Assembly (NCBI RefSeq): GCF_003863965.1 | Contig: NZ_RRCN01000001.1 | Span: 310,001-374,000, forward strand | Reading direction: 5' to 3' | Source: Paenibacillus oralis | GTDB lineage: Bacteria > Bacillota > Bacilli > Paenibacillales > Paenibacillaceae | Length of the DNA stretch: 64,000 nucleotides | Part shown: piece by piece, positions 27,611 to 38,729 of the stretch | Layout: each line of letters begins with the position of its first letter | Numbering within the stretch: the stretch's first letter is position 1 | Notes under the pieces: model-generated | Told to the model about the DNA's origin: nothing | The model's input: only the letters and a program-made list of their open reading frames with translations | Databases searched by the model: none | Position numbers and translations under genes: made by a program

Positions 27611-27650
27611 TTGTATCGAAGTTGTAACTTTTATTTTTTCCCTCTATTCA
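27611..27650 (+). promoter_or_regulatory. Site 1: phased direct repeat and promoter before the response regulator
   Basis: TTGTATC (27611-27617) and TTGTAAC (27622-27628) repeat with 11-bp phasing, typical of OmpR-family regulator sites. The second half overlaps a -35-like TTGTAA, followed 17 bp later by TATTCA (27645-27650). This suggests autoregulation of the two-component genes. Sites 2 and 3 are at 31064-31081 and 34424-34441. Confidence 0.6.
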
Positions 27651-27692
27651 ATTGTCCGTAGACGATTCAAAATATATAAAAGGTTTAATTGT

Positions 27693-28433
27693 ATGGAGCA
27701 AGGGAGACTTAAAAGGATTATGAGACAAAAGCAAATATTGATCATCGAGGACGAAGATGCTATCCGTGACATTCTGTCCTATTCCTTGGGAAAGGAAGGA
27801 TTCGTTATTCATGAAGCATCAACGGGTACGGAAGGGCTTGAAATGTTGAGCCGGCTCACCCCCGATCTGGTACTGCTGGATTTGATGCTGCCCGACATGA
27901 GCGGGTTTGACATATGCAGGCAGATGTCAGCCGCTACTAAAACACCGGTCATCATGATTACGGCCAAATCGGATATGTTGGACAAGGTGCTCGGCATGGA
28001 GCTGGGAGCAGACGATTACATCACCAAGCCGTTTGATATTCGGGAGGTCGTGGCGCGCATCCGGGCGATATTCCGCCGAATTGATCTGATCAGCGAGACG
28101 CTGGAAAATCAATCGTTTGAGGTTATTCGTCTCGGCAAGCACATCGAGATCCGCAAAGATGAGCGGGAGGTCTGGAAGGACGGGCAGCGCGCGGGGCTGA
28201 CGAACAAAGAGTACGATTTGCTGCTCTTTCTTGCCATCAACAACCGCAAGGTGTTTACGCGGTCCGAATTGCTGGACAAGGTATGGGGATACGACTTTGC
28301 CGGCGACACCCGCACAGTGGACATTCATGTGCAGCGTATCCGCAAAAAACTGGAAAACGGCGAGCAGGGAGCTTCCATGATCGAGACGGTGTTTGGCGTT
28401 GGATACAAGATGGATACCCAGGTGCGGACATGA
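27693..28433 (+). CDS. OmpR-family response regulator of the ABC cassette
   Basis: A roughly 246-residue regulator. The receiver domain shows acidic IEDED, the phospho-acceptor Asp in LVLLDLMLPD, Thr in IMITAK and Lys in DYITKPFD. The DNA-binding winged helix has the LTNKEYDLLLFLAIN and VWGYDFAGDTRTVDIHVQRIRKKL blocks of the OmpR/PhoB type. Starts possible are ATG 27693 (AAAAGG 9 nt upstream) and ATG 27720 (AAAAGG very close). Its stop overlaps the kinase start by 4 bp. I infer that it binds the three direct-repeat sites in this cassette. Confidence 0.9.
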   Translation: MEQGRLKRIMRQKQILIIEDEDAIRDILSYSLGKEGFVIHEASTGTEGLEMLSRLTPDLVLLDLMLPDMSGFDICRQMSAATKTPVIMITAKSDMLDKVLGMELGADDYITKPFDIREVVARIRAIFRRIDLISETLENQSFEVIRLGKHIEIRKDEREVWKDGQRAGLTNKEYDLLLFLAINNRKVFTRSELLDKVWGYDFAGDTRTVDIHVQRIRKKLENGEQGASMIETVFGVGYKMDTQVRT

Positions 28434-29890
28434 AGTGGACGATCCAGTTCAAAATGGTCGTCCTTTTCTCGGTCATCGTATTTATCGGCTTCTCTTCCCT
28501 GCTCATCCTTTCAAACAAGGTGGGTGAAGAGAACATGTATCGGGAAGTACATGAAGACATGATTCAGGTCAAAAAAAATCTGGACATCGCGCTCAATCAA
28601 TATTTCCTGATTCAAAACAAACGATTAAACGAAAAGTCGCTGGAGGCAGTCAATCGGGACCTTGCGGAGCAGATCGGCGCTGCAGCGGGCGGTAAGGTTA
28701 CGCTCTATCGCCCGGACGCTTCTTCGTATAATGCCTCGTCCAGCCCTGCCTTTGGTGCCGCCAAACGGCCGGATGTACAGGCTGCCCTCAAATCGAAGAT
28801 CGCTTATTCCACATGGATGCAAGAGGATGAAGTCATCGCCAGCCTGTCCTTTCCCATCATGTCTGGCCGGCAAGTCATCGGCATCATTCAATTGGAGAAA
28901 AATTATACCGGGCTGTTCAAGCGGCATCAGCGTTTTCAAAATACGATCAAAGGCTTGGCGGCGATCATTTTTGTATTTGTATTTATCGCCTCCGTCTTCA
29001 TTTCCCGGCAAATCACCAGGCCGATTCGCGTGCTCACGAAACGCGCGGTGCAAGTGGCGCAGGGCAATCTGAACGCGGACGTCAACATCTCCACGAAAGA
29101 CGAGATTGGTGAACTGGCTTCCAGCTTCAATATTATGATCAACCGTGTGCGGGAACAGATCGACGTGATTGAACGTGAGCGGGATGAAGTGAAGCAGGTG
29201 CAAGCGCGCAGCAAATTATTTTTTGACAATGTGACCCATGAATTGAAAACACCGTTGACCACCATTCTCGGATATGCCCAAATATTGCGGGATAATGGAT
29301 TTACGGACAAAGCGTTTTTCGACAAGGGCTTGAACTACATTATTAATGAGAGTCAGCGCCTGAACGTGATGGTTGCGGACATTCTGGAATTTTCCGTATC
29401 GTCCGCCGCGATGCAGGCTTATCGGTTCGAACGGATCGATGTGTCGAAGGTCGTTCGGGAGGCCTGCGAGGACATGGCGATCAAGGCGGGCAAATATAAT
29501 ATCGGCATCCATTATGAACTGGAGGAGAACCTCCATATCCAGGGCGATCGGCACAAGCTCAAGGAAGCGTTCCTAAATGTGCTCGATAACTCGGTCAAGT
29601 ATGGATATGTCAATTCGATTATCGAAGTCCGGTCGTTCCGGTCGGGCCATTTGGCTTCTGTGGTGATCAGCGATCAGGGAGAAGGGATCGGTGAAGAGGC
29701 GTTGAAACATGTGCTTGAGCCGTTTTACCGGGAGAGCGGTGCGAACAGAAAAGAGAAAGGAAGCGCAGGCCTCGGCTTGTCCATCGTAAAAAATACAATA
29801 GAACAGCATGGAGGAACCGTTCAAATGAAAAGTGCAGTGAACCAGGGCACACAGGTACACATCCATCTTCCGGGAGAATGGCCGGCATGA
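28430..29890 (+). CDS. Sensor histidine kinase of the ABC cassette
   Basis: A 486-residue membrane kinase. TM1 is at about residues 9-27, followed by an extracellular region of about 150 residues, TM2 (AAIIFVFVFIASVF), HAMP, then HisKA with H270 in THELKTPLTTILG. The ATPase domain shows the N box (NVLDNSVKYG), G1 (DQGEGIG) and G2 (SAGLGLSIV). The extracellular part has no recognised ligand motif. The start ATG 28430 overlaps the regulator's TGA, and the stop overlaps the next gene, so regulator, kinase and propeller protein are coupled. Confidence 0.9.
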   Translation: MKWTIQFKMVVLFSVIVFIGFSSLLILSNKVGEENMYREVHEDMIQVKKNLDIALNQYFLIQNKRLNEKSLEAVNRDLAEQIGAAAGGKVTLYRPDASSYNASSSPAFGAAKRPDVQAALKSKIAYSTWMQEDEVIASLSFPIMSGRQVIGIIQLEKNYTGLFKRHQRFQNTIKGLAAIIFVFVFIASVFISRQITRPIRVLTKRAVQVAQGNLNADVNISTKDEIGELASSFNIMINRVREQIDVIERERDEVKQVQARSKLFFDNVTHELKTPLTTILGYAQILRDNGFTDKAFFDKGLNYIINESQRLNVMVADILEFSVSSAAMQAYRFERIDVSKVVREACEDMAIKAGKYNIGIHYELEENLHIQGDRHKLKEAFLNVLDNSVKYGYVNSIIEVRSFRSGHLASVVISDQGEGIGEEALKHVLEPFYRESGANRKEKGSAGLGLSIVKNTIEQHGGTVQMKSAVNQGTQVHIHLPGEWPA

Positions 29891-31044
29891 AGAACCGGGA
29901 TTTCTGGAAAAAATATCGCGATATGTTCCTGGTAACCGTTTTGCTGGCCGTTTTTGTCGGCGGCATATTCGGGGTCGGCAGTATGTTCGAGATAGGCGGT
30001 TCCAAATTGAGGACGGTCATTCTCCCCGGAGAACAGTTCAACAGCAGTCTCGTCTCTCCGCCAAACAGTACGGTCCAGATTGAAGCCGCGATCAAACGGC
30101 CTAATGATTTTGCCATCTACGATTTTGAAGTCGCCGATCAAAACACCCTGATCCTGAGCCGGCCGGAAAACTCTTATACCGGTATCAAAATCTCAATGCT
30201 TAAACTGGATGACAATCATGTTAAGGATCTTGCGACGAATACCGAGTACGGCGTAGCCTTAAGCCCCGATCAGGAGAAGATGATCTTCTCCGAATATCGC
30301 TCTGCGCAGGCACAGAGAACAACCTATGAGTACGACATAAAATCCGGACAGCGGCGGAAACTGGCCAATGACAACTTCTATTTTCGGCGGTATTTCGGCA
30401 ATGACACATATATCGGGTATGATATCCTCGTTTTCAGAATGATCGATTTAAGTACTGGCAAGAAGCGTTTACTGTACAGCGATGAAGAAATCAAGAATCT
30501 GGTAGCCAAGGAGAACCATATCCCGAATCCGGATGAGGTGTGGATTCTCCCCGATTCCATGGAGTTCAGCAGGGATTTGCAGTATTTTTATGCTCTTGTC
30601 GGCGGGGATAACAAGTTCATGGTATACCGTTTTTCCGTGAACGATCGGAACAATGTAGTTGCATATACCCCTGCCGACGAAATCCAGCAATTTAGAGTGC
30701 TTAAGAACGGCGATTTACTGGTTCAAGGTATTGTGAACAAGGTGCAGGGACTATTTATATACCGAAACGCCTCGAAGCGGTTCGACCTGCTGATGAAAAG
30801 CAACATCTGGAGCTTCGACCTGAATGAAGATGAGTCCCGGATTGCTTATTTCACGGTGCTCGAAAACCAAAAAAACGAACTGCACATGGCCTATCTTGAA
30901 GGCGGCAAGTTATTGTCGGACACGGTCGTGTACCGTAATATCGATAATTTTGTCAATCTCAAATGGAACGGCGACAATCTCTTTGTTGTGAGCAGCTCCA
31001 TGGAAAAAAGCGAGATTTACCGCTTCACGTTCCGCGCCTGGTAA
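29887..31044 (+). CDS. Membrane-anchored beta-propeller-like protein of unknown function
   Basis: A 385-residue protein with a short basic N-terminus and one TM helix (MFLVTVLLAVFVGGIFGVGSM) that would leave a large domain outside. The exported part has repeated blade-like units ending in patterns such as TEYGVALSPDQEKMIFS, SMEFSRDLQYFYALV and LNEDESRIAYFTVL, which look like TolB/WD-type propeller blades. No catalytic motif is seen. Start ATG 29887 overlaps the kinase stop (ATGA); ATG 29878 is in frame but less likely. Its place between kinase and ABC genes suggests a sensory or regulatory accessory role; this is inference. Confidence 0.7.
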   Translation: MKNRDFWKKYRDMFLVTVLLAVFVGGIFGVGSMFEIGGSKLRTVILPGEQFNSSLVSPPNSTVQIEAAIKRPNDFAIYDFEVADQNTLILSRPENSYTGIKISMLKLDDNHVKDLATNTEYGVALSPDQEKMIFSEYRSAQAQRTTYEYDIKSGQRRKLANDNFYFRRYFGNDTYIGYDILVFRMIDLSTGKKRLLYSDEEIKNLVAKENHIPNPDEVWILPDSMEFSRDLQYFYALVGGDNKFMVYRFSVNDRNNVVAYTPADEIQQFRVLKNGDLLVQGIVNKVQGLFIYRNASKRFDLLMKSNIWSFDLNEDESRIAYFTVLENQKNELHMAYLEGGKLLSDTVVYRNIDNFVNLKWNGDNLFVVSSSMEKSEIYRFTFRAW

Positions 31045-31063
31045 CCAGGCGCCACGGGCTCAT

Positions 31064-31081
31064 TTTACAACTTGGATACAA
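31064..31081 (-). promoter_or_regulatory. Site 2: phased direct repeat before the ABC ATPase
   Basis: On the reverse strand, TTGTATC (31081-31075) and TTGTAAA (31070-31064) match site 1 with the same 11-bp phasing, in opposite orientation. A perfect plus-strand TATAAT lies at 31111-31116 with no good -35, as in an activator-dependent promoter for the ABC genes. Confidence 0.6.
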
Positions 31082-31160
31082 TCGTGAGCAAGACGGATAC
31101 ATCTGCCAATTATAATGATTTCCGACAAGTACTGAACCTAGGAGAAAAGGAGCTATTTAC

Positions 31161-31859
31161 ATGCTGCGTGTTGAACATGTATCGCATTCATTCCGCAATG
31201 CTCAGGGCGCGGTTCCTGTCCTGCAAGACATCAACATCTCGGTAAGCAAAGGCCGGATGGTGGCGCTGCTGGGCAGCTCCGGCTCAGGCAAATCCACGCT
31301 GCTGAATCTAATGGCCGGACTGATGAAGCCTGATGCGGGAGAAATATGGATTGCAGATCAGGATATTGTGCAGCTAAGCGAAAATAAGCTGGCCGAATTC
31401 CGGCGGACTCACATCGGGTTTATTTTTCAGGCGTATGAGCTGCTGGGAAATTTAACGATTCGGGAAAATGTGGAACTGCCGCTCGTTTTTATGGGCGTAC
31501 GTCCGTCTCTCCGCAAGACTAAAGCAATGCAACTGCTGGAACAGGTAGGACTTGCCCCCAAAGCGGAATTGTTCCCGTCTCAGCTATCCGGCGGTCAACA
31601 GCAGCGGGTCAGTATTGCGCGTTCCTTGATTACCGAACCGTCCGTCATTTTTGCCGACGAACCAACGGGGAATCTGGATACGCAGACCGAGGAGGAGATC
31701 ATCTCGATTTTGCAGGAGCTGAATCAGGAGCTGAGCACCACGTTCGTCATTGTCACCCATGAGGCGGAAGTAGCTGAGCAAATGCAAGATATCATTACTC
31801 TCCATAATGGTTCTCTTGTACAAGGCGAGTTGTCCGGAAGCGACAGAATTGAACAGTAA
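31161..31859 (+). CDS. MacB/LolD-type ABC ATPase
   Basis: A 232-residue ABC ATPase with Walker A (GSSGSGKST), signature (LSGGQQQRVSIARSL), Walker B (VIFADEPTGNLD) and switch His (VTHEAE). DEPTGNLDT marks the MacB/LolD/FtsE group that works with FtsX-like permeases, not importers. ATG 31161 follows AGGAGAAAAGGAG. It lies 117 bp after the propeller gene behind its own likely promoter, and 12 bp before the permease. Confidence 0.93.
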   Translation: MLRVEHVSHSFRNAQGAVPVLQDINISVSKGRMVALLGSSGSGKSTLLNLMAGLMKPDAGEIWIADQDIVQLSENKLAEFRRTHIGFIFQAYELLGNLTIRENVELPLVFMGVRPSLRKTKAMQLLEQVGLAPKAELFPSQLSGGQQQRVSIARSLITEPSVIFADEPTGNLDTQTEEEIISILQELNQELSTTFVIVTHEAEVAEQMQDIITLHNGSLVQGELSGSDRIEQ

Positions 31860-31871
31860 AGGAGAAAAGGT

Positions 31872-33230
31872 GTGAGATTTCTTGATCTAATACGAATGTC
31901 ATGGGGCCAGATCATTCGCCGAAAAGTGGTGACCCTGCTATGTATGGTTGGGTTGTCCATTGGCTGCGCAGCCATGATTATGGCGCTCAGCATAGGGACG
32001 TCAGTACAGGAATACGGGGAAAAAACTCTGAATGAAAACTACAAGATGGATGAGATTACGGTCACTCCGAACGAAGGAATCAGCTCGGGCGGAAACAAGG
32101 GGCAAACGTCCACCTTCGAGCGTGGAGCATTGACCCAACAGAAAATTGATATTATTTCCAAACTGCCGCATGTTGTTTCCGTGGCCCCCATGCTGAAACT
32201 GGACATGCTGGAAATGACGACAGCAGACGGAAAAAGCTCGTGGGTGGAGGTAACCGGAACAGAACTGGGAACACTAAGCCGCTTCGGATCCCGCTTCGCC
32301 CAGGGCGGCGCCTCCACGACCGGTGGGGCTGTGGTAGCCAACTACGGCGCCATTTTTGGTCTGGCTGATCCCGAGGTTGTACGTCAATTGAATGACAAAC
32401 TGATGGAAGACCCTTACAACGACCAGTTGATTCAGGAGTATATGCAAATGATGTCCACACCCGCAGAGCTTTTTCAGGCCCAAATTAATCTGAAATCCCA
32501 GGATATGAATACTCCATCCAAAATAAGAACAAGCTCGCCGCTGCGCGTTACCGGCATATTGGACATGCAGAAGGGGGTAAACGAGGAATCGGCCAAATAT
32601 GATAAAAAATTGTATGTTTCGCTTGAGACAGCAAGAATGCTTGCCGATCAGCTCCAGACCAACCCATCTTCTCCGGCCGGGAGGCTAAATTCGGCACTCG
32701 TAAAAGTGGAAAACAAGCAGTATGTCGCCCAGGTGGAGGAGCAAATCAAACGGCTGACCCTCAGAACAGAAAGCAATCTGTTTCAGGAAAAAATGATGAG
32801 CGAGCAGTTAGGCATGTATGAAAAGGCGGCGATAGGGATTGGCACCTTCGTTATGCTATTAGCTTCCCTGTCCATCATTGTCGCCATGATTATGTCCACC
32901 CATCAGCGCCGCAAACAGATTGGCGTCATGAAGGTGCTCGGGGCAAACCTGTGGCAGATTCGGCAAATGTTTATCACCGAAGCGGCTGTATTGGGTATGC
33001 TGGGAGGTATCGTTGGAGTAGTCATTGCCTACGCAGCAATTGGGGGAGTCAATCAAGTGTTGGTCAATCAGATCAGTCTTCAAAGCAGCACCCCGCTTAA
33101 CGTGGTCATCCAGGTTTCGGCGCTGCCCGCCGGTGTCGCCTTCTCGATCCTGACCGGGATCGTCTCGGGAATTTATCCCGCTATCAGCGCCTCGCGCACC
33201 AACGCGTTAGAAGTCATTAAATCCGCTTAA
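31872..33230 (+). CDS. FtsX/MacB-type ABC permease
   Basis: A 452-residue permease with the MacB topology: an N-terminal TM helix (VVTLLCMVGLSIGCAAMIMAL), a large extracellular domain of about 270 residues, and three C-terminal TM helices (from IGTFVMLLASLSIIVAMIM to AFSILTGIVSGIYPA). The cytosolic coupling region QRRKQIGVMKVLGA is conserved. It starts at GTG 31872, 7 nt after GGAG. With the ATPase and the adaptor it forms a MacAB/YknXYZ-like machine that acts on the envelope side (mechanotransmission rather than classical transport). Confidence 0.9.
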   Translation: MRFLDLIRMSWGQIIRRKVVTLLCMVGLSIGCAAMIMALSIGTSVQEYGEKTLNENYKMDEITVTPNEGISSGGNKGQTSTFERGALTQQKIDIISKLPHVVSVAPMLKLDMLEMTTADGKSSWVEVTGTELGTLSRFGSRFAQGGASTTGGAVVANYGAIFGLADPEVVRQLNDKLMEDPYNDQLIQEYMQMMSTPAELFQAQINLKSQDMNTPSKIRTSSPLRVTGILDMQKGVNEESAKYDKKLYVSLETARMLADQLQTNPSSPAGRLNSALVKVENKQYVAQVEEQIKRLTLRTESNLFQEKMMSEQLGMYEKAAIGIGTFVMLLASLSIIVAMIMSTHQRRKQIGVMKVLGANLWQIRQMFITEAAVLGMLGGIVGVVIAYAAIGGVNQVLVNQISLQSSTPLNVVIQVSALPAGVAFSILTGIVSGIYPAISASRTNALEVIKSA

Positions 33231-33278
33231 ATGGAACTTGAATAAGATGATATCCGAATTAATGAGAGGACAAACGGC

Positions 33279-34370
33279 ATGAATAAATCGATAGCAGTCA
33301 AATGGATCAAGCGGGTCGTTATTATTTTTCTGCTCGCAGGATCAGGATTTTTTTTGTATCAAAAATATAAACCGGCACCGGAAGCACCGGTTGAGGCGCC
33401 GGCGCCCATTACATTTCAAGTTACACAGGAAACGATAACCCAGGAGATTCAAGTAAAAGGAAAATCAGCTTATACGGATCAAACCGACGTATTCGCTCCG
33501 TTTACGGGACCCATCAAGCAGTGGCATGTGGAGAACGGACAGGCGGTTCGTAAAGGGGCCGCGTTGTTTTCGCTGGACTCGAAGACGTTGCAAAATGAGG
33601 TTCAGCAAATGGAGAGCGAGATGATGAAATCCAGATTGGAGAACAAGCTGAATAAAATATCAGCCAAGCAGGGAGAAGGTGCCGAGCAGCCCGGCGTTAC
33701 GGAAGAAGAACGCAAGAAAGCTTTTGCCGACAGGGAATCCAAGCGTCTCATGAGCGATATAAACGAGGAAGCTATTGCTGTGAAAGAGCAGGATATCGCG
33801 TTTAAAAAAAGCCTCATAGGTATGTCGACGGTATCTGCTCCGGCGTCCGGTGTATTTTTGCTGAATGAGACGGATACGAAGACCCGGATGGTGAACGAGG
33901 GACAATACGTGGGTACTGTTGTAAATACGGGCAAGCTCCAGTTTACGGCTGCCGTCAGCGAGCAGGAAATCTTTCGCATCAAGGCAGGTATGCCCGTCAA
34001 GGTGCAGATGACCGGTAAAAAAGAAATCCCCTTAACCGGAAAGGTCAGTAGAATTTCGAAGTTTGCCAAAAAAGGAGCGGAGAATGATCCGAAGCAGGTT
34101 TCCCAGTTTGATATTGTGATTGATCTGAAGCCGGACCCGAGCCTGATCGGCGGAATAAGCCTCGAAGGTAAGATCGAAACAGCACGCAAGGAAAAGGCGA
34201 TTGTTGTTCCCAGTCTTGCAGTCATGCGCGAGCAAAATGAAGCTTATGTAATGCTGGACAAAGGCAATGGCAACTACGAACGGCAGACGATACAAACAGG
34301 CATCGAAACCGATGACAAAACTGAAGTGCTGAATGGCCTGAAGCCCGGGGATACCGTGGTTTTACCATAA
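33279..34370 (+). CDS. MacA/HlyD-like efflux adaptor
   Basis: A 363-residue adaptor with an N-terminal TM helix, a Pro/Ala-rich linker (APEAPVEAPAP), a biotinyl-lipoyl half (YTDQTDVFAPFTGPIKQWHVENGQ), a charged coiled-coil hairpin (residues about 105-180), the returning lipoyl half (STVSAPASGVF), then beta-barrel and membrane-proximal domains. YknX in B. subtilis is the closest type by architecture. Here the order is ATPase-permease-adaptor instead of the more usual adaptor-first. It ends the cassette; no terminator is seen directly after it. Confidence 0.9.
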   Translation: MNKSIAVKWIKRVVIIFLLAGSGFFLYQKYKPAPEAPVEAPAPITFQVTQETITQEIQVKGKSAYTDQTDVFAPFTGPIKQWHVENGQAVRKGAALFSLDSKTLQNEVQQMESEMMKSRLENKLNKISAKQGEGAEQPGVTEEERKKAFADRESKRLMSDINEEAIAVKEQDIAFKKSLIGMSTVSAPASGVFLLNETDTKTRMVNEGQYVGTVVNTGKLQFTAAVSEQEIFRIKAGMPVKVQMTGKKEIPLTGKVSRISKFAKKGAENDPKQVSQFDIVIDLKPDPSLIGGISLEGKIETARKEKAIVVPSLAVMREQNEAYVMLDKGNGNYERQTIQTGIETDDKTEVLNGLKPGDTVVLP

Positions 34371-34423
34371 ACAAACCCGTTGGATTTTATTATAGAGGGA
34401 TTTTGTTTCGGATTTCAGAAGAC

Positions 34424-34441
34424 TTGTATCGAGATTGTAAC
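34424..34441 (+). promoter_or_regulatory. Site 3: orphan copy of the phased direct repeat
   Basis: TTGTATC (34424-34430) and TTGTAAC (34435-34441) match site 1 in 20 of 22 positions, same orientation and phasing. It lies 54 bp after the adaptor stop; no plus-strand gene follows, and the terminator of the opposing penicillin-binding gene begins 34 bp on. It may be a relic promoter or drive an antisense RNA. Confidence 0.55.
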
Positions 34442-34474: not shown

Positions 34475-34524
34475 CAAAAAAATCAGCGATCTTTTCCCAA
34501 CCGATGTTGTGAAAAGATCGCTGA
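34475..34524 (-). terminator. Intrinsic terminator after the first penicillin-binding protein gene
   Basis: TCAGCGATCTTTTC and its exact complement form a 14-bp stem, followed on the reverse strand by TTTTTTTG. It lies 27 bp after the stop at 34551. Confidence 0.9.
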
Positions 34525-34550: not shown

Positions 34551-36605
34551 TTACTCCGCCTTGTTGTTCTTACTGGATTGGCCGTTCGTCTGCTGATTTT
34601 TCGTCTTCTTCGGCACCCCGTCGAGGCCGTACTCCTGATCGTAAGCGTCGAAAATTTTGCGGGCTACCGGCGCGGCGCTGTAGGCGCCAAATCCGCCTTC
34701 GGGTATGACGACAGCAACGGCGAGCTTGGGATTTTCACGCGGCGCAAAGGCGATGAATACGCCGTTATCTCTATTTTTCCCGGCACCCCATTGCTCCGAG
34801 GTCCCCGTTTTTCTGGCAAAGTCATACGGGAAGCCGGAAAAAGCGGACGACACATTGGTGCTCATCCCGGCAATTACTTCTTTCCAGTATGCGTCGTTAA
34901 ATTTAACCTCGTTCAGCACTTTCGGTTTAAATTCCTCAACGACGTTTCCTTCGGAATCGGTAATTTTGCTCACTAAATGCGGCTCCATCCGCTTGCCTCG
35001 GGTCGCAAGCGTTGTCGTATATTGGGCCAGCTGCAACGTGGTATATTTCCCTTGCTGTCCAAAGGAAGCGTACGCCAACCGGGACAAGGAGGTTTCCTTA
35101 TCGTTCATATATTCCAGCTTGCCCAGGTATTCCTGCGGAAGATCCACACCCGTGGATACGCCAAGGCCAAACTGCTTCATATAGTCGTCCCAGACGTCGA
35201 TCCCTTTGTCTCCGTATTTCTTCCATAGCCTTTCCCCAACCATATCAACCATAAAGGTGTTGGAGGAGTGAAGGATCGCTAGTCTTGGGTCAACAACGCC
35301 ATACGCGTGTCTTTGGGAATTTCGGACGCTCGACGAATCGTTTTTCCCGAAATAAGCTATACCCGTATCGTTGTAATACGAATTTGTCGTAAACAAGTTT
35401 TCGTTTAAGCCGATTAACACGGATAACGGCTTAATCGTGGATCCAAGCAAGACGGTAGATTCGAAATCATGTCCTGAACGCCCCGAACTGAATGGGGTAA
35501 TGGTTCCATTCATATAGTTGCTTGAAATCTTCTTCCAATCATCAGGCGAAACCCCGCCCGACTGCCAGACGTTCGTATCGTAATCCGGCATGCTGGCCAT
35601 CGCCACCACGTTGCCGGTATCTACTTCCATAGCGACGGCATAACCGGTTTTGGCATTGGGATGAACTTCACCGGACACCCGGTGGGTATGCACCCACTGG
35701 ATTTGGTCCAAAATCGCCTGTTCGGCCACAAGCTGGACATTTTTGTTGATCGTTGTATGCAGATCGTTTCCTTTCACCGGCGGCGTTACCTCAGGGATGC
35801 CCGTGGCCATATTCCGCGGATCGATCGGAACGCTTTTGTACCCGTTTTTGCCGCGCAGCTCGCTTTGATAATACAATTCCAGCCCGTCGTAACCGACGTC
35901 CTCGGTTTCCGTATACTGCATATCCGGCGGCGTATCTTTTTGCGCGCGGATCTGTTTATAAAAATCCAGGTTCGTCGACGCATTGGAGTATTTCCGGATA
36001 TACCCGATCGTCTGCACGGCTACCGTATCCGGATCATAATGCCGGATGCTTTCCTCGACGATATCGATCCCCGGGAACTGGTCCTTCCGCTCCAGAAAAT
36101 AAGCAACCTCTTCCTTGGTCAAATCCATTTTGATCCGGCGCGGCGAAAATCCGTTTTGCTTCCGGTAATCCAGGTCCATCGCTTCGATGATGTCCTCTTT
36201 CGTCATCTTGGAATCCGCACTGCCGTATTTGTCGAACACTTCTTTTAATTTATCCGCCAAAGCCAGCGCTTCCGGCCGGTTCTTTTTTCCCTTGTCCGTC
36301 GTGCTGCTGTAATCCTTCTGCAAAGTAATATAGAGGGACTGTACGGGCGTGGAATACGCCAGTTTCTCTCCGCCGGCCGCATAAATCGTGCCCCGCGTGG
36401 GCGCCAGCGGCACATCCTTCACCCGCAGGCTGCTTTCCTGTTTGGACAGGGTCGGCCCTTCCACAAACTGCAAAATCGCCAGCCGAACGATAATGACGGT
36501 AAAAATGGCAAATGCGCTGAAGAAGAACATGTTCAGCCGTATATTAAAATGTCTCTGCATCGACGCTTCTTGCTCGCGCGGATCTTCACTGTAGACACTT
36601 TTCAC
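34551..36605 (-). CDS. Class B penicillin-binding protein (copy A)
   Basis: A 684-residue peptidoglycan DD-transpeptidase of the PBP2/PbpA type: cytosolic tail, one TM helix (NMFFFSAFAIFTVIIVRLAIL), a dimerisation domain, then the transpeptidase domain with S389 in STIK, the SSN motif in HSSNTF and KTGTSEQ. It ends with a Gln/Asn-rich tail (KTKNQQTNGQ). The frame opens at 36650, but GTG 36605 is chosen because copy B starts at the same codon with the same upstream AGGGGAATCGCA. It is a tandem duplicate of the gene upstream. Confidence 0.9.
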   Translation of the reverse strand: MKSVYSEDPREQEASMQRHFNIRLNMFFFSAFAIFTVIIVRLAILQFVEGPTLSKQESSLRVKDVPLAPTRGTIYAAGGEKLAYSTPVQSLYITLQKDYSSTTDKGKKNRPEALALADKLKEVFDKYGSADSKMTKEDIIEAMDLDYRKQNGFSPRRIKMDLTKEEVAYFLERKDQFPGIDIVEESIRHYDPDTVAVQTIGYIRKYSNASTNLDFYKQIRAQKDTPPDMQYTETEDVGYDGLELYYQSELRGKNGYKSVPIDPRNMATGIPEVTPPVKGNDLHTTINKNVQLVAEQAILDQIQWVHTHRVSGEVHPNAKTGYAVAMEVDTGNVVAMASMPDYDTNVWQSGGVSPDDWKKISSNYMNGTITPFSSGRSGHDFESTVLLGSTIKPLSVLIGLNENLFTTNSYYNDTGIAYFGKNDSSSVRNSQRHAYGVVDPRLAILHSSNTFMVDMVGERLWKKYGDKGIDVWDDYMKQFGLGVSTGVDLPQEYLGKLEYMNDKETSLSRLAYASFGQQGKYTTLQLAQYTTTLATRGKRMEPHLVSKITDSEGNVVEEFKPKVLNEVKFNDAYWKEVIAGMSTNVSSAFSGFPYDFARKTGTSEQWGAGKNRDNGVFIAFAPRENPKLAVAVVIPEGGFGAYSAAPVARKIFDAYDQEYGLDGVPKKTKNQQTNGQSSKNNKAE

Positions 36606-36716
36606 TGCGATTCCCCTACTTTCTTCCCCTGATGATTCGTTTATCGGCATGATCGAGGCAACCGTCAGCCTTATCTATATTAACATAACTTAAGGAAACG
36701 AAGCGAAGTTACAGCG

Positions 36717-38729
36717 TTATTTCTTTTTCGTTTTTTTCGGCACTCCATCGAGGCCATATTCCTGATCATAGGCGTCGAAAATTTTGCGGGCCACCGGTGC
36801 GGCACTGTGCGCGCCAAAGCCCCCTTCCGGGATCACGACAGCGACGGCAAGCTTCGGGTTCTCGCGCGGCGCAAAGGCGATGAATACACCGTTTTCCATA
36901 AGCCGCCCCCGGTAATCCTGCTCCGACGTCCCCGTCTTCCGTGCAAAGTCATACGGAAAACCGTTGAATGCGCTCACCTCGGTACTCATGCCCTTAATGA
37001 CTTCTCTCCAATACACATCATTAAATTTAACCTTGTTCAGCACCTTCGGTTTAAACTCTTTGATGACATTTCCTTCGGAATCGGTGATTTTACTTACCAG
37101 ATGCGGCTCCATCCGCTTGCCCCGGGTCGCAAGCGTTGTCGCATACTGGGCAAGCTGCAGCGCGGTATATTTCCCCGTCTGCCCAAAGGAAGAGTACACC
37201 AGTCGGGCCAAGGAAGTTTCCGACTCGTCGGTATAGTCCAAACTACCCAGGAATTCTCTAGGGAGATCCACGCCCGTGGATACACCAAGGCCAAACTGCT
37301 TCATGTAGCCGTCCCAAACATCAATCCCTTTGTCATTGTACTTCTTCCATAGCTTTTCTCCCACCATATTGACCATAAAGGTATTGGAGGAGTAAGTGAT
37401 CGCCTCTCTAGGGCTAATTCGGCCGTACACATGTCTTGAGGAATTTCGCACACTTGATGAATCATTTCTCCCGAAATAGGCAATCCCCGTATCGTTGTAT
37501 CGATCACTCGTCGTAAACAGTCCTTCGTTAAAGCCGATTAACACGGACAACGGTTTGATCGTCGAACCGAGGTAAACGGTGGATTCGAAATTATGTCCCG
37601 AACGTCCCGAACTGATCGGGGTGATCGTCCCGTTTTGGTAGTTATTTATAATTTTGTTCCAGTCGTCCGGCGAGATCCCGCCCGACTGCCATACATTCGT
37701 ATCGTAATCCGGCATGCTGGCCATCGCCACCACATTACCGGTATCCACTTCCATCGCGACGGCATAGCCGGTTTTGGCATGGGGATGTACTTTTCCGGAC
37801 ACCGGGTGCGTATGTACCCATTTGATTTGGTCCATAATGGCTTGCTGGGCGACAAGCTGCACATTTTTATTGATCGTTGTATGCAAATCATAGCCTTTTT
37901 CCGGCGGTGTCATCTCCGGAATCCCGTTTGCCATATTGCGCGGATCGATGGGGACGCTCTTAAATCCGTTTTTGCCCCGCAATTCATTTTGATAATACAA
38001 TTCCAAACCGTCGAAACCGACAAGCTCCTCTTCCGTATACTGCAGGGAAGGATCTTCATTTTTCGCTTCTCTGATCGGGTCATACCGATCCAAATCGTTT
38101 GTCGATTTAAACTTTTTAAGATAACCGATCGTCTGAACGGCTACCCCATCTTTGTCATAATGCCGGATGCTCTCCTCAACGATATCAATCCCCAAAAACT
38201 CACTTTTGCGTTCAATAAAGTACGCTATTTCTTCTGAAGTTAGATCCGCTTTGATTCGCCTTGGAACAAAGCCGTTATTGGTCTGGAAATTAAGGTCCAT
38301 TGCTTTGAGGATATCCTCTTCGGACATGGCCTTGTCAGGATCTCCATAACGGTCAAACGCATCTTTCAATTTTTGGGCTAAAGCCACCGCTTCCTCATAA
38401 TTCTTTTTTCCCGATTCACTGTCCTGGCTGTAGCTGCTCTTTTGCAAAGTCAAATACAAAGATTGAACCGGTGTCGAATAAGCCAGCTTTTCGCCTCCGG
38501 CAGCCAATATAGAACCTCTCATCGGAGGCATTGGCACATCCTTTACCCGCAGATTGCTTTCCTGCCTGGACAGCGTCGGGCCTTCCACAAACTGCAAAAT
38601 CGCCAGGCGAACGATAATCACGGTAAAAATCGCAAAAGCGCTAAAGAAAAACATATTTAGCCGGATATTAAAATGTCTCTGCATCACCGCTTCTTGCTCG
38701 CGCGGATCGTCCATGTAGACACTTTTCAC
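36717..38729 (-). CDS. Class B penicillin-binding protein (copy B)
   Basis: A 670-residue paralogue of copy A, matching it along the whole length with long identical blocks (for example RHFNIRLNMFFFSAFAIF and VGFDGLELYYQ versus VGYDGLELYYQ). The active Ser is again residue 389 (STIK), with SSNTF and KTGTSEQ. The main differences are in the dimerisation region and a shorter Lys-rich tail (KKTKKK). GTG 38729 has TAGGGGAATCGCA upstream, as does copy A. The promoter regions of both copies share TATATTAACATAAC and AGCGAAGTTAC on the plus strand, so the duplicated unit includes control DNA. Confidence 0.9.
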   Translation of the reverse strand: MKSVYMDDPREQEAVMQRHFNIRLNMFFFSAFAIFTVIIVRLAILQFVEGPTLSRQESNLRVKDVPMPPMRGSILAAGGEKLAYSTPVQSLYLTLQKSSYSQDSESGKKNYEEAVALAQKLKDAFDRYGDPDKAMSEEDILKAMDLNFQTNNGFVPRRIKADLTSEEIAYFIERKSEFLGIDIVEESIRHYDKDGVAVQTIGYLKKFKSTNDLDRYDPIREAKNEDPSLQYTEEELVGFDGLELYYQNELRGKNGFKSVPIDPRNMANGIPEMTPPEKGYDLHTTINKNVQLVAQQAIMDQIKWVHTHPVSGKVHPHAKTGYAVAMEVDTGNVVAMASMPDYDTNVWQSGGISPDDWNKIINNYQNGTITPISSGRSGHNFESTVYLGSTIKPLSVLIGFNEGLFTTSDRYNDTGIAYFGRNDSSSVRNSSRHVYGRISPREAITYSSNTFMVNMVGEKLWKKYNDKGIDVWDGYMKQFGLGVSTGVDLPREFLGSLDYTDESETSLARLVYSSFGQTGKYTALQLAQYATTLATRGKRMEPHLVSKITDSEGNVIKEFKPKVLNKVKFNDVYWREVIKGMSTEVSAFNGFPYDFARKTGTSEQDYRGRLMENGVFIAFAPRENPKLAVAVVIPEGGFGAHSAAPVARKIFDAYDQEYGLDGVPKKTKKK

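Follow-up and report, generated by a model that had tools for sequence, protein, structure and literature searches.

What does it mean when the same repeat lies before a regulator gene, before a transporter operon and beyond the last gene of one bacterial gene cassette? The question is raised by a stretch of 64,000 nucleotides from Paenibacillus oralis (G000:C1:310001-374000, hereafter the window; the whole G000 genome comprises 8,108,289 bases), where six genes encode a response regulator, a sensor histidine kinase, a putative beta-propeller protein (PROP) and the three components of an ATP-binding cassette (ABC) exporter (Table 1), and where the motif TTGTATC-N4-TTGTAAM is found at three places, denoted sites A, B and C. 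We consider it probable that the OmpR/PhoB-family regulator of the cassette binds at these sites, that the kinase, the propeller protein and the regulator together run a small cell-wall regulon, and that site C belongs to a promoter that has been orphaned. Literature searches on this system, with most subscription journals outside their coverage, found no paper about it.

Three sites and a longer promoter

All three sites match the motif at 14 of the 14 half-site bases and keep the 11-bp phase, a closer fit than the 12 or more of 14 claimed in an initial reading of the DNA (hereafter the sequence-only reading), which had located them correctly. These three, every one inside the cassette, are the only exact matches in the entire G000 genome. 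With one mismatch allowed, the genome contains 13 matches compared to 9 for the pattern read backwards, so that the 10 matches outside the cassette look like background; with up to three mismatches, there are 7 matches in the window against 5.06 expected, so that, within the window, exact matches alone are informative. Inside the adaptor gene, at 33354, there is a site with two mismatches, which was taken as background. The second half-site of A, TTGTAA, is located 17 bp (spacing by reading) before TATTCA (27645-27650), a possible -10 box.

The motif was derived from the same three window sites, which makes its conservation in other genomes the real test. We fetched 60 regions, 59 of which have a regulator entry (the exception is L105; two of the 59 loci come from G172). 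A site with at most one mismatch is present no more than 300 bp upstream of the regulator gene, always on the plus strand, at 56 of the 59 loci outside the window (50 exact), and no more than 400 bp after the propeller gene, always on the minus strand, at 44 of 55 loci (37 exact); the latter count excludes L073, L084, L104 and L106, which have no propeller entry (a propeller match was seen in three of them). When the same regions were shuffled, with base composition alone preserved, site A appeared in 1 of 1180 cases and site B in none of 1100, and a chance origin of the sites was rejected on this comparison. Site C, among the 60 regions, was found in G012 and G013 alone, the two closest relatives of the window (P. 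macerans-type; the long blocks they have in common with the window show 88-93% DNA identity, excluding the pairings of penicillin-binding protein (PBP) paralogues at 78-80%).

Sites B and C each belong to a longer promoter, TTACAA-N4-GATACAA-N14-GAWACA-N9-TATAMT. Among 53 aligned minus-strand sites from 52 loci (including the window), located 3-13 kb after the regulator start, TTACAA-N4-GATACAA is shared and the distances are fixed, with the third half-site GATACA present in 44 and TATAAT in 43 of these B-type sites. Even at five mismatches, the full pattern picks out B and C alone in the window, and the reversed pattern nothing; at three mismatches, B and C are again the only matches in the whole G000 genome. 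Across the 394 genomes of our family-wide scans, the full pattern with at most two mismatches occurs in 79 genomes (reversed control, 0): 57 of the 67 with a propeller gene versus 22 of the 327 without. In a scan of 30 genomes, 7 had no match to it.

Read leftward, site A has a similar continuation. Among 57 such sites, the third half-site is GAAACA in 39 and GATACA in 7, followed by TATACT in 37, and a gene resembling those of extracytoplasmic function (ECF) sigma factors is divergent from the regulator gene in 45 of the 60 regions (Pfam was checked on two of the proteins). The leftward half has decayed in the window, where a gene for a zinc-binding protein lies next to it. G013 and G012 now have such a neighbour too, in place of a sigma gene, but still keep the leftward half, with 1 and 0 mismatches, respectively (L051:2578-2595 and its equivalent in L052). 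Copies of the promoter with one mismatch also occur in G090 (L208:6258-6309), G095, G102, G105, G137 and G138, genomes without the cassette propeller; the copy in G090, the only genome where the gene was read, precedes the gene of an unidentified protein with a signal-like start.

Table 1 Sites, promoters and genes of the cassette (window coordinates)
Feature	Position	Strand	Location or basis
Site A, TTGTATCGAAGTTGTAAC	27611..27628	+	upstream of regulator gene
Response regulator, receiver and winged-helix domains, OmpR/PhoB family	27720..28433	+	PF00072, 106.5 bits; PF00486, 92.2 bits
Sensor histidine kinase with HAMP, HisKA and HATPase domains	28430..29890	+	domain searches
PROP, predicted membrane-anchored beta-propeller protein; gene overlaps kinase gene	29878..31044	+	predicted fold, no Pfam family
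Site B	31064-31081	-	before ABC operon, within promoter B
Promoter B, TTACAA-N4-GATACAA-N14-GATACA-N9-TATAAT	31065..31116	+	before ABC operon, 0 mismatches
Cargo segment unlike G012/G013	31121..34377		DNA similarity comparison
ABC transporter ATPase, MacB/LolD type	31161..31859	+	domain searches
MacB-like permease (MacB_PCD and FtsX), 452 aa	31872..33230	+	Pfam
Membrane fusion (adaptor) protein, HlyD/MacA-like (HlyD/RND_mfp)	33279..34370	+	domain searches
Promoter C, complete, probably orphaned	34389..34440	-	points leftward into 3' end of adaptor gene, 0 mismatches
Site C	34424-34441	+	beyond last gene, within promoter C
Inverted repeat, CAGCGATCTTTTC/GAAAAGATCGCTG	34484..34524		by reading

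The regulator and the reading of the sites

The cassette regulator contains both domains that define the OmpR/PhoB family (Response_reg and Trans_reg_C), and the geometry of the sites agrees with direct repeats of the OmpR/PhoB type, about 11 bp apart. Its best NCBIfam matches are MtrA (NF040689, 234.3 bits) and YycF/WalR (NF040534, 231.4 bits), both under the respective cut-offs (>300 and >340 bits), and we refer to it as WalR/MtrA-like; the kinase scores 161.1 bits for MtrB (NF040691, cut-off >450 bits). Orthology of the cassette regulator with WalR was considered and rejected, given the score of 231.4 bits and the separate WalR encoded in the same genome (388.5 bits for NF040534). Residues R198, T199, V200, D201, H203, Q205, R206 and R208 are invariant in 22 of 22 aligned regulators, including that of the window, at identities down to 55%; the near-constancy of this stretch (R198-R208), which we take to be that of the recognition helix, fits the unchanged site. 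The helix stretch of the genome's own WalR reads RTVDVTIRRLR.

The regulator, kinase and propeller genes form one overlapping row (27720-31044), and the propeller gene is located in at least 55 of the 59 regulator loci. The N-terminal region of the kinase appears, by reading, to be extracytoplasmic. PROP has no match in Pfam or NCBIfam at E 0.001, and weak PD40 matches were obtained for 8 of the 34 members of its family alignment. Its predicted structure consists of a helix (residues 4-32) followed by a propeller (mean pLDDT 65.9), a model of modest confidence for which the best rows in Foldseek have low TM-scores, about 0.3; to that extent, the predicted fold supports the propeller-like protein recognized in the sequence-only reading. 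By analogy, we propose that PROP is a sensor accessory of the kinase. The propeller protein was matched in 67 of the 394 family genomes (about nine matches are weak) and in nine named loci, all from Paenibacillus and partly from the same genomes. This patchy presence is compatible with loss or transfer; no mobility gene was seen within the cassette or directly beside it, transfer having been given no dedicated test, and the transferability proposed in the sequence-only reading is unproven.

These features suggest a mechanism. If MtrAB-LpqB is taken as a model, a cell-wall signal would be sensed jointly by the kinase and the extracytoplasmic propeller encoded with it. Once phosphorylated, the regulator would bind TTACAA-N4-GATACAA and also the third half-site, which precedes the -10 box by nine bases, and would activate transcription, as the fixed promoter geometry suggests. 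At A, with the second half-site in the position of a -35 box, the regulator would adjust its own operon; at B, it would turn on the MacAB-type exporter; at C, the same kind of promoter, facing leftward, would be activated, now without its gene. Judging by gene content, such a regulon would modify peptidoglycan and clear a wall-active compound from the outer side of the membrane; the deacetylase, exporter, sigma factor and possibly carboxypeptidase genes associated with these promoters in the window or its relatives point to a response to peptidoglycan damage or antimicrobial peptides. The scheme would provide a precise and testable promoter code for a wall-stress system. It would also connect peptide-type exporters, a peptidoglycan deacetylase and possibly a carboxypeptidase with a two-component system that has a propeller as partner.

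Several observations weigh against this reading. The orthologous loci share ancestry, and the conservation counts are accordingly not independent. At 11 of the 55 loci, the 400 bp that follow the propeller gene contain nothing within one mismatch of the site. Four of them (L085, L086, L088 and L091) still have a B-type site before the ABC gene, though displaced; at the remaining 7, the B-type site is missing or the module is absent. The full pattern is absent from 10 of the 67 genomes with propeller matches, including G023 and G208, where these matches are strong. Conversely, a search in which every candidate regulator was scored, in six genomes including the positive control G124 (which was found), gave no regulator match at E 1e-62 in G082, G089, G099, G110 and G150. 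All five keep a two-mismatch promoter identical, or almost so, to the one that precedes VanY-type genes elsewhere (the gene behind it was read in other genomes, not in these five); G089, G099 and G110 also keep a promoter without mismatches at the sigma gene, and the other two have the VanY-like promoter alone. Among the 22 genomes with the promoter and without the propeller, 2 have a regulator match at E 1e-72 (55% identical), with 64 candidates scored in most; 22 genomes without the promoter likewise gave 2 matches (53 and 56%; 64 candidates scored in most). The sensing role of the propeller is drawn from analogy, and binding and activation are inferred from sequence.

Another regulator could be involved. 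Sister regulators in G052 (L233), G211 (L234) and G060 (L235), 42-44% identical and with the helix GTRTVDIH[IV]QRLRKKL, each adjoin, together with their kinases, a promoter of the same type, which in G052 and G211 leads into the gene of a propeller lipoprotein (whose LpqB-domain matches are below threshold) and in G060 into a row of genes for VanY, the sister regulator and the sister kinase. Such a sister regulator may read these promoters, including those in the five genomes without a regulator match. The broader proposition, that the sites are read mainly by WalR or a sister regulator and that the cassette regulator is a minor or partial reader, gains from the occurrence of such promoters where a genome lacks any close orthologue of the cassette regulator and from the near-identity of the sister helices, but we regard it as unlikely, given that sites A and B track the cassette. 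As for WalR specifically, its box is TGTWAH-N5-TGTWAH (PMC4168254), which the second half of our motif, TGTAAM, fits and the first half, TGTATC, does not. The helix of the genome's WalR also differs, and WalRK is said to be present in all Firmicutes (PMC9210968), compared to 79 of 394 genomes for the full promoter.

Reading of the sites by the cassette's own regulator thus remains the interpretation we favour. The sequence-only reading had the regulator act through the shared site on its own gene and on the ABC genes, a proposal that the recurrence of the motif at the same places in orthologues supports as an inference. Confinement of the motif to the cassette holds for exact copies in G000, but the promoter type is also found beside the sister regulator, and the term "self-marked" overstated the case, the promoter type persisting where the genome has no regulator closely orthologous to this one. 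VanY was rejected as a target in the window genome, where there are three VanY-type relatives and no promoter within 7 mismatches at the two loci scanned; the VanY loci scanned in G012 and G013, one each, also have none within 7 mismatches. In other genomes VanY may still be a target of this regulator, given the row in G060 that starts with VanY behind such a promoter.

Promoter C and the genes between the facing promoters

The gene behind the C-type promoter in G012 is an intact one for a polysaccharide deacetylase, equipped with a Shine-Dalgarno-like GAGGAG. Its counterpart in G013 is without its start and is followed by an intact ECF sigma gene; in G012, it is the sigma gene that is shortened. 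At the window locus, to which the search was confined, the deacetylase gene is absent; promoter C runs directly into the 3' end of the adaptor gene, and behind it on that strand only antisense reading frames were seen. Because in relatives the same promoter precedes a deacetylase gene that is missing here, C is probably a leftover, its gene having been lost and replaced by the exporter, and would be a case of a promoter that outlived the gene it served. One-mismatch copies of the promoter precede deacetylase genes within the regulator's gene cluster in G094, G211 and G172 as well, so that the link to the deacetylase is not peculiar to one clade.

The exporter genes themselves encode an adaptor, an ATPase and a MacB-fold permease side by side, as in MacAB/YknXYZ-type systems. 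DNA similarity to G012 and G013 ends at 31120-31121, 4-5 bases past the -10 box of B, and restarts at 34378, 11 bases from the -10 box of C. The segment in between contains, in the window as in most relatives, the ABC, permease and adaptor genes, and in G012 and G013, genes for a TolC-like protein, a different adaptor, an ATPase and a MacB permease, along with deacetylase and sigma genes or their remnants. G000 gave no match to the TolC-like protein, and the best matches of the window permease are 24% in G012 and 22% in G013. The second module has another place in G023, immediately before the regulator. The ABC half, bracketed by promoters B and C facing each other, thus varies between close relatives, and the cassette is not the one fixed unit, with C as its end-mark, that the sequence-only reading had described. 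The TolC-like protein (L009:9285-10466, plus strand; PF02321 outer-membrane efflux family) is encoded with a MacAB-type exporter in Gram-positive Paenibacillus; the copies in G012 and G023 are 92% and 81% identical to that in G013.

A more speculative view, which we hold only tentatively, is that the facing promoters B and C, read by a single regulator, delimit a standing cargo slot. Modules for wall defence (an ECF sigma gene, a deacetylase and MacAB-type exporters of two unlike kinds) would replace one another there through recombination at the promoters, coming immediately under the resident sensor, and the promoter code would be common to a family of MtrAB-LpqB-like three-component systems in Paenibacillus and its kin. 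If so, defence genes could be swapped without loss of regulation.

Promoter C might, alternatively, still be useful, with antisense RNA over the adaptor and permease genes limiting the exporter. Promoter C is intact, without a mismatch, faces the ABC operon, and has not decayed, whereas the leftward half at A has; against this, an ordinary gene lies behind C in G012 and the loss in the window may be recent, which makes such a function doubtful. That the conserved element is the promoter of an ECF sigma factor, recognized by that factor, is suggested by the sigma gene divergent from the regulator in most regions, by the sigma-gene promoters kept in three genomes without a close regulator orthologue, and by the resemblance of the GGAAACA element to ECF -35 boxes. 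However, the spacing to the -10 box is 9 bases, compared to the usual spacing of about 16 in ECF promoters, two upstream half-sites are left unexplained, and B and C are kept in G000, where the best match to the sigma gene of G013 is no closer than 30%; we rejected this explanation, which is highly improbable, on the wrong spacing. Equally improbable is a role of C as a boundary mark or decoy site, for which its place after the last gene and on the same strand as A would speak, given that it includes a third half-site and a -10 box at the spacing of B, on the opposite strand, with a gene behind it in G012. The preferred reading thus remains that of an orphaned promoter.

To the right of C, the inverted repeat is likely the terminator of the facing PBP gene, perhaps serving both strands. 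Two tandem PBP2-like genes (34551-36650 and 36717-38729, minus strand) adjoin the cassette; G013 and G012 also have two, the second of which is 78-79% identical to the first protein of the window. In the 16-kb stretch L205 (G110:C51:14000-30000), the cassette seems to have shrunk to an adaptor remnant and a sigma gene whose promoter is perfect; matches to the regulator, kinase, propeller and permease were not seen there.

Comparison with known systems

The cassette resembles MtrAB-LpqB of Actinobacteria in the order of regulator, kinase and extracytoplasmic protein, here encoded in one gene row, and in MtrA being the best NCBIfam match of the regulator. The MtrA motif has two GTKAYS parts separated by 5 nt (PMC10714768). 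LpqB, a binding partner of the outer domain of MtrB (PMC3353115), is called a beta-propeller domain protein (PMC13068155). Unlike in MtrAB-LpqB, the cassette regulator and kinase fall under the MtrA and MtrB cut-offs, PROP has a predicted membrane helix and no LpqB Pfam match, and the cassette is patchy in its family and appears to control an adjoining exporter. The two matches of the window PROP at E up to 1 do not include PF10647 (LpqB), which is also missing from the 25 families listed for the whole 34-member PROP alignment. Within Bacillota, the Parageobacillus protein AOT13_14265 is another propeller protein with a two-component system: PMC13068155 describes it as a lipoprotein that is likely operonic with that system and proposes interaction with the kinase; the passages on it mention no promoter code, exporter or regulon.

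WalRK (YycFG) has in common with the cassette the regulator family, the 11-bp phase and wall-modifying targets, among them the deacetylase PdaC, reported to be under WalRK control in B. subtilis. The cassette differs in the extra third half-site, the tiny regulon by the full pattern, the sub-cut-off score of the regulator and the presence of a separate WalR in the genome. Exporters of the YknXYZ/SpMacAB type likewise consist of a separate adaptor, ATPase and MacB-like permease, and YknXYZ protects against a toxic peptide (PMC5985334). Unlike these, the cassette exporter adjoins a dedicated two-component system with a propeller. A resemblance to YvrGHb/SigO/YvrPON of B. subtilis was considered as well and set aside, one limited literature search having yielded nothing of use.

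Kinases of the BceRS type are without a large sensor region, and the cassette kinase, compared with BceRS-BceAB, has a HAMP domain and a long N-terminal region. The BceAB permease has ten helices (PMC5985334); the cassette permease is 452 aa long and has a MacB_PCD domain.

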